11,184 nucleotides of DNA. Source: a bacterium. Its GTDB lineage: Bacteria; Thermosulfidibacterota; Thermosulfidibacteria; Thermosulfidibacterales; Thermosulfidibacteraceae. The DNA lies in NCBI GenBank assembly GCA_027022065.1, contig JALVZS010000070.1:1-11184 (forward strand). Reading direction: 5' to 3'. Shown piece after piece: positions 9,139 to 11,184 of the stretch. How positions within the stretch are numbered: the stretch's first letter is position 1; the number at the start of each line of letters is the position of its first letter. Below the pieces are notes generated by a model, which had not been told where the DNA came from, ran no database searches, and worked only from the letters and a program-made list of their open reading frames with translations. The translations under genes were made by a program, and so were the position numbers.

Positions 9139-10449
9139 TCAGAATTTTTTGCCCGGATTCATGATGTTGTCAGGATCAAAAGCTGCCTTAAGTCTGCGGT
9201 ACAAGTCCAAATGGGATGAAGGCACCTGCAGGCCCAGATATGGCCTCTTTGTAAGACCAATTCCGTGCTCCCCCGAAAGGACCCCTCCAAGGGCCACTGT
9301 TATTATGAAGACCTCTTTTGTGGCCTTCAGGGCCTTTTCCCACATGACGGGGTCGTCTTTATCTGTCATTATATTTACATGTATATTTCCATCGCCTGCG
9401 TGACCAAAGCACACTATCGGAATACCATACCTTTCTGAAACAGTCCTATAACCTTTAAGCGCATCCGCAAGTCTAGAAACAGGAACTGTAACATCCTCAT
9501 TTATCTTGGTAGGAGCTATGCTCATTAAAGAAGGCGATATGGCCCTTCTTGCCGCCCATACCTTCTCCTCTTCGGATTCCATGATTTCGGCCTTGTATTC
9601 GGCAAACAGCCCCTTTAGCACATCAACCTGCCTCTTCACACCCTCCTCAAAGCCGTCAACCTCAACCAGAATAACCGCCTCGGCCCATTCCGGAACATCT
9701 ATGCTTTTATACTTTCTAACGCACCGGATGCTGGTTATGTCCATTATCTCCAGTGCACTCGGAGAAAAGGAAAGGGACATCACCTTAGAAATCGCATCTC
9801 CCGCATCCTCAAGTTTTTTAAAAGCAACAAGCATGAAAGAGGCAGTCTCAGGCAGAGGCACAAGCTTCAAAAGCACCTTCGTAACTATCCCCAAGGTCCC
9901 CTCAGATCCCACAAAAACAGGTGTTATATTCAATCCCACCACCTTCTTTTTAACTCTTGCCATATTAGAGTAGATCTCCCCTGTTCCCAAAACCACTTCC
10001 AAGCCCTTAACGTAGTCTGCAGTCACTCCGTACTTAACCGCCCTTGGCCCTCCAGCGTTGGTGGCCACATTCCCCCCTATGGTGCAGCTTTCAAGGCTTG
10101 ATGGATCGGGAGGGTACATGAGGCCAAATTTTTTAACCGTTCTCTGTAGCTCTGCGGTGATAACACCTGGCTCCACAACCACCACCATATTTTTATCATC
10201 CACATCTAGGACATTCCTCATCTTTTCAAGGGAAACCACAACGCTACCCTTTAAAGGAACCGAGCCTCCCACAAAGCCTGTACCCCCGCCTCTTGGAACC
10301 ACCTTCAGATCTTTGCTTCTACAATAAAGAACCGCTTCCTTTACCTCCTCCACACTTTTCGGGAAAAAGACCCCTTCAGGTAGACCCCTCATACCTGTGG
10401 CATCGTAAGAATAAGCCTCCCTTATGGCCTCATCCTTGATCAGCTTCAT
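9139..10449 (-). CDS. glcD: FAD-linked 2-hydroxy-acid dehydrogenase, GlcD / D-lactate dehydrogenase family
   Basis: This enzyme oxidises a 2-hydroxy acid (glycolate, D-lactate or similar) to the 2-oxo acid through FAD, passing electrons to an iron-sulfur partner. From ATG 10449 it has 436 residues. The FAD-binding PCMH domain covers about 20-200: PRGGGTGFVGGS (52-63), PPDPSS (113-118), TIGGNVATNAGGPRAVKYG (123-141) and FVGSEGTLGI (179-188). The C-terminal oxidase domain carries NEDVTVP (317-323), H350 and H357 in GHAGDGNIHVN, SGEHGIG with H395, and a closing NPGKKF. The N-terminus is some residues shorter than in many relatives. An ATG eight codons upstream (10473) is possible; frames beyond it run into the divergent gene and look non-coding. 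Neither start has a Shine-Dalgarno, unlike nearly every other gene here. The natural partner is the divergent iron-sulfur gene to the right. Substrate is undetermined. Confidence 0.93.
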   Translation of the reverse strand: MKLIKDEAIREAYSYDATGMRGLPEGVFFPKSVEEVKEAVLYCRSKDLKVVPRGGGTGFVGGSVPLKGSVVVSLEKMRNVLDVDDKNMVVVVEPGVITAELQRTVKKFGLMYPPDPSSLESCTIGGNVATNAGGPRAVKYGVTADYVKGLEVVLGTGEIYSNMARVKKKVVGLNITPVFVGSEGTLGIVTKVLLKLVPLPETASFMLVAFKKLEDAGDAISKVMSLSFSPSALEIMDITSIRCVRKYKSIDVPEWAEAVILVEVDGFEEGVKRQVDVLKGLFAEYKAEIMESEEEKVWAARRAISPSLMSIAPTKINEDVTVPVSRLADALKGYRTVSERYGIPIVCFGHAGDGNIHVNIMTDKDDPVMWEKALKATKEVFIITVALGGVLSGEHGIGLTKRPYLGLQVPSSHLDLYRRLKAAFDPDNIMNPGKKF

Positions 10450-10458
10450 GGCTGGTAA

Positions 10459-10487
10459 TTGACATACCCCCATTGGAAACCTATAGC
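10459..10487 (+). promoter_or_regulatory. Promoter for the glcF-like gene, predicted to give leaderless mRNA
   Basis: TTGACA (10459-10464), a perfect -35 consensus, is followed after exactly 17 bases by TATAGC (10482-10487), matching four of six -10 bases but lacking the final T. With the standard seven-base step, transcription would begin at 10494, which is the A of the glcF-like ATG. No Shine-Dalgarno precedes that ATG, consistent with a leaderless message. Confidence 0.6.
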
Positions 10488-10489
10488 AA
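10461..10489 (-). promoter_or_regulatory. Candidate overlapping promoter for glcD
   Basis: On the minus strand TTGCTA (10484-10489), a 17-base spacer and TATGTC (10461-10466) form a weaker promoter-like pair (four and three consensus matches). It overlaps the plus-strand promoter almost base for base. The predicted start near 10454 leaves about five bases before the glcD ATG, again with no Shine-Dalgarno. Confidence 0.35.
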
Positions 10490-10493
10490 GAAC

Positions 10494-11184
10494 ATGGACT
10501 TTTCGGGCATATGCGTAAAGTGTGGAAAGTGCAAATCGGTATGCCCCACCTATGATATTTACAGAAACGAGGCCTTAAGCCCCAGGGGAAGGGTTCACCT
10601 GGCCCAGATAATACTAGAGGGAAAGCTCCCGAGAAACGCAGAAAAAGCACTGGAGAGCTGCACTCTGTGCCTTGCCTGCGAGGAAATATGTCCCCAGAAG
10701 GTTAAGATAACGGAGTTCATAACCAGAGCTAGAGCCAGAGTAAAAAAGGAAAAGCTTAAAAAAGCAGTAGTAACTATAGCATCAAAAGATACAGGAAGCA
10801 AAGGCTCCCCCACCTCCTCTAGGAAAACCTGCGTCCTTTTTGCAGGATGCGTTGTGTCAAAGGTGTTGCCCCATGTAGAGAGAGAGTCTTTAAGGCTGCT
10901 TAACGATGCAGGCTACAGCGTTATCCCCCTTGAGGGAAGCGTATGCTGCGGATTCCCCTTTTACGCAGTGGGTAAGGAAGCTGATGACTTCATTGAAAAG
11001 AACAAAAAGACCCTAGAGAAAGCAGAGGAAGTGATAACCTGCTGCTCCACATGCGCATCCTACATGAAGAAAACTAGGCAAGGGAAAGTCAGAGACATAG
11101 CGGAAGTGATAGTAGAATACGCCCAAATAATCACTCCAAAGCTTCAGTACACAAACACCCGCTTTGCCTTTCATATACCTTGCC
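10494..11184 (+). CDS. glcF: GlcF-like iron-sulfur electron-transfer subunit with CCG domain, cut by the window edge
   Basis: I translated 230 residues from ATG 10494 with no stop before the window end. Two ferredoxin-type [4Fe-4S] motifs open it: C7, C10, C13 and C17 (CVKCGKCKSVCP), then C56, C59, C62 and C66 (CTLCLACEEICP). SPRGRVHLAQ (29-38) between them matches GlcF. After a short lysine-rich linker comes the first cysteine-rich CCG domain, with C119 in FAGC, C151-C152 in VCCGFPF and C183, C184, C187 in TCCSTC. Such proteins take electrons from a GlcD-like flavoprotein to the quinone pool or another carrier. It is the only plus-strand gene here and diverges from glcD, whereas glcD and glcF normally run the same way. 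The upstream frame stays open, but no better start or Shine-Dalgarno is seen; a TTG at 10473 is the alternative. The call as a glycolate oxidase subunit rather than a related Fe-S oxidoreductase is likely but not certain. Confidence 0.85.
   Translation, partial: MDFSGICVKCGKCKSVCPTYDIYRNEALSPRGRVHLAQIILEGKLPRNAEKALESCTLCLACEEICPQKVKITEFITRARARVKKEKLKKAVVTIASKDTGSKGSPTSSRKTCVLFAGCVVSKVLPHVERESLRLLNDAGYSVIPLEGSVCCGFPFYAVGKEADDFIEKNKKTLEKAEEVITCCSTCASYMKKTRQGKVRDIAEVIVEYAQIITPKLQYTNTRFAFHIPC

Follow-up and report, generated by a model that had tools for sequence, protein, structure and literature searches.

The 44 bp between the start codons of two divergent genes, glcD-like and glcF-like, in an 11,184-nucleotide stretch of bacterial DNA (the window) are probably a minimal divergent regulatory region that holds two core promoters of the housekeeping-sigma (sigma-70) type on opposite strands. 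Each core promoter appears to be placed so that transcription would begin at, or a few bases from, the start codon, and the glcD and glcF messages would then have no leader, or almost none, and their translation would proceed without any Shine-Dalgarno (SD) sequence. We infer the real start sites, the sigma factor, leaderless translation and expression from the DNA sequence. Every ingredient of this arrangement is already known in bacteria, and the glc region belongs to established classes, of which it is a compact example.

Genes and promoter elements of the glc region

The features of the region are as follows.

9139..10449, minus strand: glcD-like FAD-linked oxidase gene, 436 aa, start ATG 10449
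10450..10493, no strand: intergenic region carrying both putative promoters, 44 bp between the ATGs
10459..10464, plus strand: -35 TTGACA of the glcF promoter
10461..10466, minus strand: -10-like TATGTC of the glcD promoter, weak, predicted start ~10453-10454
10482..10487, plus strand: -10 TATAGC of the glcF promoter, predicted start 10494 (the A of the ATG)
10484..10489, minus strand: -35-like TTGCTA of the glcD promoter, weak
10494..11184, plus strand: glcF-like iron-sulphur subunit gene, start ATG 10494, cut by the contig end

The glcD product contains FAD_binding_4 (2.9e-45) and FAD-oxidase_C (7.7e-61) domains, and the glcF product contains Fer4_8 (1.1e-11) and CCG (1e-9) domains. The initial annotation took the two genes, which it named glcD and glcF, for two subunits of one enzyme. 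The GlcD and GlcF models do match the proteins, but both matches fall under the curated cut-offs (440 bits against 567.9 for the GlcD model TIGR00387; 83.7 against 333 for the GlcF model, with a protein truncated by the contig end), and the name 'glycolate oxidase subunits' is therefore approximate. The glcD ATG is supported by an MKxxK motif just after it, which aligns in the window and in two genomes of the same family, G007 (GenBank JAADEW010000045, labelled Deferribacteres bacterium) and G008 (JALVKL010000063). Likewise, the GlcF proteins of all three start a few residues ahead of CVKCxKC. The remaining genes in the window have SD sequences apart from pth, which follows rplY by 3 bases; the earlier statement that neither glcD nor glcF has one held true, with a longest match of 0 ahead of glcF. 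The glcD ATG of G008 similarly lacks an SD.

An approximate sigma-70 matrix of E. coli was used to score putative promoters in 80-base scans, with 3000 dinucleotide shuffles for comparison. The glcF promoter (TTGACA-17-TATAGC) matches the consensus at 10 of 12 positions and is the top site of its scan; its score of 10.5 was reached by ~0.2% of shuffles (p ~0.002). The A of the glcF ATG is the seventh base past the -10, giving a -10-to-ATG distance of 12. The glcD promoter (TTGCTA-17-TATGTC) has 7 of 12 matches and a score of 5.7, which ~7% of shuffles reach (p ~0.07); one minus-strand site within its 80-base scan scores higher. Its -10 lies 17 bases from the ATG rather than 12-14, with a predicted leader of 4-5 bases. 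The window taken alone thus establishes one promoter, not two. A simple promoter scan lists neither of them, because it demands T at the last -10 position.

Each -35 overlaps the -10 of the opposite strand by 4 bp, and the predicted glcD and glcF starts are ~40 bp apart. The promoters overlap because a leaderless promoter needs ~36 bp upstream of the ATG and the gap has only 44 bp; polymerases at the two promoters would probably exclude one another sterically. The coordinates, the 44-bp gap and both hexamer pairs with their 17-bp spacers are as first annotated, as are the computed starts, on the A of the ATG for the plus strand and about five bases before glcD for the minus strand. The description 'face-to-face overlapping' is apt for the elements, which do overlap, but not for the predicted transcripts, which diverge without overlapping; 'overlapping divergent promoters' fits better. 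CCATTGG (10470-10476), a palindrome of 7 bp around a single central base, was seen by eye near the centre of the gap; it is absent from the intergenic sequences of G007 and G008.

Conservation of promoter position in the family

Among the genomes searched, the genus is represented by this one alone, and searches at the order, class and phylum levels give the same 9 genomes. A single-sequence scan of the genome contigs found nothing, and an alignment-based scan of the contigs returned 70 loci. The divergent glcD/glcF pair recurs in both other family members compared, G007 and G008 (GlcD 56% identical). Outside the family, a glcF next to glcD mostly has the same orientation, in tandem, so that the divergent layout is comparable in three genomes only. 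At three of the four start codons in the relatives, the top promoter lies 13-14 bases from the ATG and predicts a start 1-2 bases before it: glcD of G007 (TTGTTA-17-TATATT, score 11.2, shuffle p 0.0003), glcF of G007 (TTGCCA-17-TAAGTT, 10.2, p 0.002) and glcF of G008 (TAGACA-17-TAAAAT, 10.2, p 0.0003). The corresponding glcD site of G008 (TTGTGA-17-TATAAA, distance 13) is marginal, with a score of 6.3 and a shuffle p of 0.04, and ranks fourth in its scan.

The gaps between the ATGs are 44 bp in the window, 50 bp in G008 and 75 bp in G007, and the promoter elements are overlapping, abutting and back to back, respectively. It is the -10-to-ATG distance that is kept among the relatives, and the overlap is not. 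The overlap that the initial annotation described is present in the window, and the elements of G008 come close to it, but it is not conserved in G007.

For glcD of G007 (locus L004, ATG at 1501), an in-frame TTG also falls within the region predicted to hold the promoter, 36 bases ahead of the ATG. This TTG is preceded by AAGGAGGTG, a nine-base SD match at a spacing of 6 bases, and is either an alternative SD-led start or a coincidence.

Leaderless-type starts across the genomes and the truD/kinase pair

Across 0.8 Mb of sequence from G000 (the genome of the window) and G007, promoters scoring at least 9 were located relative to candidate ATGs of the called genes. A total of 23 promoters (8 in G000 and 15 in G007) were positioned 12-14 bases before ATGs, in 6 position-genomes, against 22 (12 and 10) at distances 16-31, in 32 position-genomes (sixteen positions in each genome). 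This represents a peak about fivefold above the neighbouring positions. Promoter counts climb again at distances 33-47, the usual position of leadered promoters. In a control with 200 kb of E. coli K-12, no peak was found at 12-14 (one match, against 7 at 16-31); with the wrong strand of G007 as the control, there were 5 matches at 12-14 as well. None of the leaderless-type starts in G000 and G007 has an SD match of at least 5. Counting TAnnnT hexamers alone ahead of ATGs yields no more than a faint signal, which becomes clear once the -35 and the spacer are added.

Leaderless genes are a minority in both genomes, with 7 of 435 genes in G000 and 15 of 404 in G007 at the strict threshold. In the G008 fragments, no promoter peak at leaderless distance was seen (0 of 90 genes), which is partly a matter of the small sample. 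The glcF gene of the window is missing from the related list of starts and apparently falls outside the genome-wide counts; an extended glcD frame probably displaced it in the gene calls. Independently of the promoter score, in which the base at -1 played no part, a pyrimidine precedes the A of the ATG at 25 of 31 leaderless-type starts (hand count) compared with 43% of SD-led ATG starts (p=5e-5). The same holds for all six glc starts (p ~0.006). A pyrimidine is preferred before a purine start site.

Taken with the scores above, a leaderless glcF message, as first proposed, is well supported as a prediction. A leaderless or near-leaderless glcD message is likely, given the relatives, the genome-wide peak, the lack of a good SD and the pyrimidine at -1, although the glcD promoter is weak in the window.

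A still tighter divergent arrangement is formed by a truD-like gene and a gene for a CLP1-like P-loop kinase, whose ATGs are separated by 22, 23 and 23 bp in G000, G007 and G008. The gaps are located as follows.

L065:3418-3441 (G000:C16): truD/kinase gap
L227:3789-3813 (G007:C35): truD/kinase gap
L246:1447-1471 (G008:C148): truD/kinase gap

On six of six sides in the three genomes, the best promoter is at distance 13-14; the weakest side, truD of G008, scores only 6.5. The near-consensus -10s overlap inside the gap and each -35 lies within the first codons of the partner gene, so that the same bases carry promoter and coding constraints. The two starts predicted for the pair lie ~24 bp from each other, within a symmetric -10. 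In three f2 genomes, a match to the kinase was found but no truD in the flank examined. Ultra-compact divergent leaderless promoters, that is, regions of 22-50 bp with two opposed core promoters and starts on both start codons, may be recurrent in this lineage and conserved across genera, with the truD/kinase pair and its -35s in partner coding sequence as the extreme; we consider the case for this generalization evenly balanced.

Start-codon-proximal promoters are best known from Deinococcus-Thermus, actinobacteria and archaea, and these results suggest that such promoters, with good -35 elements, are used in an uncultured phylum. They also bear on the length to which a whole divergent regulatory region can shrink if neither gene needs a leader, and on gene callers, for which some true starts in such genomes would have no SD.

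Alternative explanations and known systems

The most serious alternative is that only glcF has a strong leaderless promoter, while glcD is transcribed weakly, or from further upstream inside glcF, and the minus-strand hexamers arose by chance. We regard this as possible but doubtful. The frequency with which shuffles match the minus-strand score of 5.7 is compatible with it, and a site inside glcF at distance 47 (TTTACG-17-CATGTT) scores slightly more, at 6.1. However, the glcD-side promoters of the relatives reach higher scores at the leaderless distance (11.2 in G007 and 6.3 in G008), and a long leader would provide no ribosome site at a glcD ATG that lacks an SD. It is less probable, and in our judgement unlikely, that the true starts lie elsewhere and are SD-led, namely at ATG 10473 for glcD of the window (MGVCQLPAMKL...), at the upstream TTG for glcD of G007 and at TTG 10473 for glcF. 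The window ATG has a short AGGT at 5 bases and the G007 TTG has AAGGAGGTG six bases ahead of it, but the window TTG has no SD, and no alternative start was found upstream of glcD in G008 or of glcF in G007 and G008. Moreover, the N-terminal extensions so created are mutually unlike, whereas the MKxxK after the assigned ATG aligns in three of three genomes.

The initial annotation went further and proposed alternating firing from a single element. A regulated switch of this kind, in which selection favoured mutually exclusive polymerase binding at overlapping elements as a means of balancing the two subunits or making them in turn, seems highly improbable. The 4-bp overlap on each side in the window and the abutting elements in G008 are in line with it, but the G007 promoters are back to back and do not overlap, and two subunits of a complex can be made without alternation. 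Nor was competition seen at basal activity in five E. coli bidirectional promoters, where basal transcription was too low for polymerases to compete and competition occurred only once one side was strongly activated (PMC12825309). Alternating firing is thus unsupported beyond steric plausibility, and the preferred reading remains a pair of start-codon-proximal promoters that share a short gap.

Leaderless mRNAs and bidirectional promoters had both been cited as known in bacteria, which the literature confirms. Many bacteria, among them Aquificae and Deinococcus-Thermus, have leaderless genes whose -10 adjoins the start codon (PMC3160421; PMC12340547). Such TA-led genes resemble the present ones in that the start codon follows the -10 after a few bases, an SD is lacking and a minority of genes is involved; here, however, the -35s are good, the spacers are mostly 17 bp and two promoters occupy one 44-bp region. 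The M. tuberculosis genes prpD (Rv1130) and Rv1129c are divergent with mapped start sites on both start codons, and closely juxtaposed divergent promoters were called common in the transcriptome of that species (PMC3898074). The glc pair is alike in its adjacent divergent genes with two, in this case predicted, leaderless mRNAs. It differs in that the M. tuberculosis starts were mapped experimentally, and also in genes, lineage and gap.

Bidirectional promoters, in which the two start sites are separated by 7-25 bp and the -10 is shared, are widespread (PMC10268837). In the E. coli and Salmonella examples, opposed promoters engage polymerase in either orientation (PMC12825309; PMC10268837), much as is proposed here, but the predicted starts in the window are ~40 bp apart, outside the 7-25 bp range, and the shared bases belong to -35 and -10 elements. 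The glc region is therefore a slightly wider relative of the bidirectional class, and the truD/kinase pair, at its predicted ~24 bp, falls within the class. The overlapping and face-to-face divergent promoters of Beck and Warren (1988), as relayed in PMC3584212, share with the glc region a short gap and two divergent genes. Compared with the class as relayed there, the predicted glc transcripts are non-overlapping and leaderless, and no regulator or operator was found for the glc pair.

Two further divergent pairs in G007 have leaderless-type promoters on both sides, one with a gap of 79 bp (L233:2846-2926) and one with a gap of ~135 bp (L081:4002-4138).
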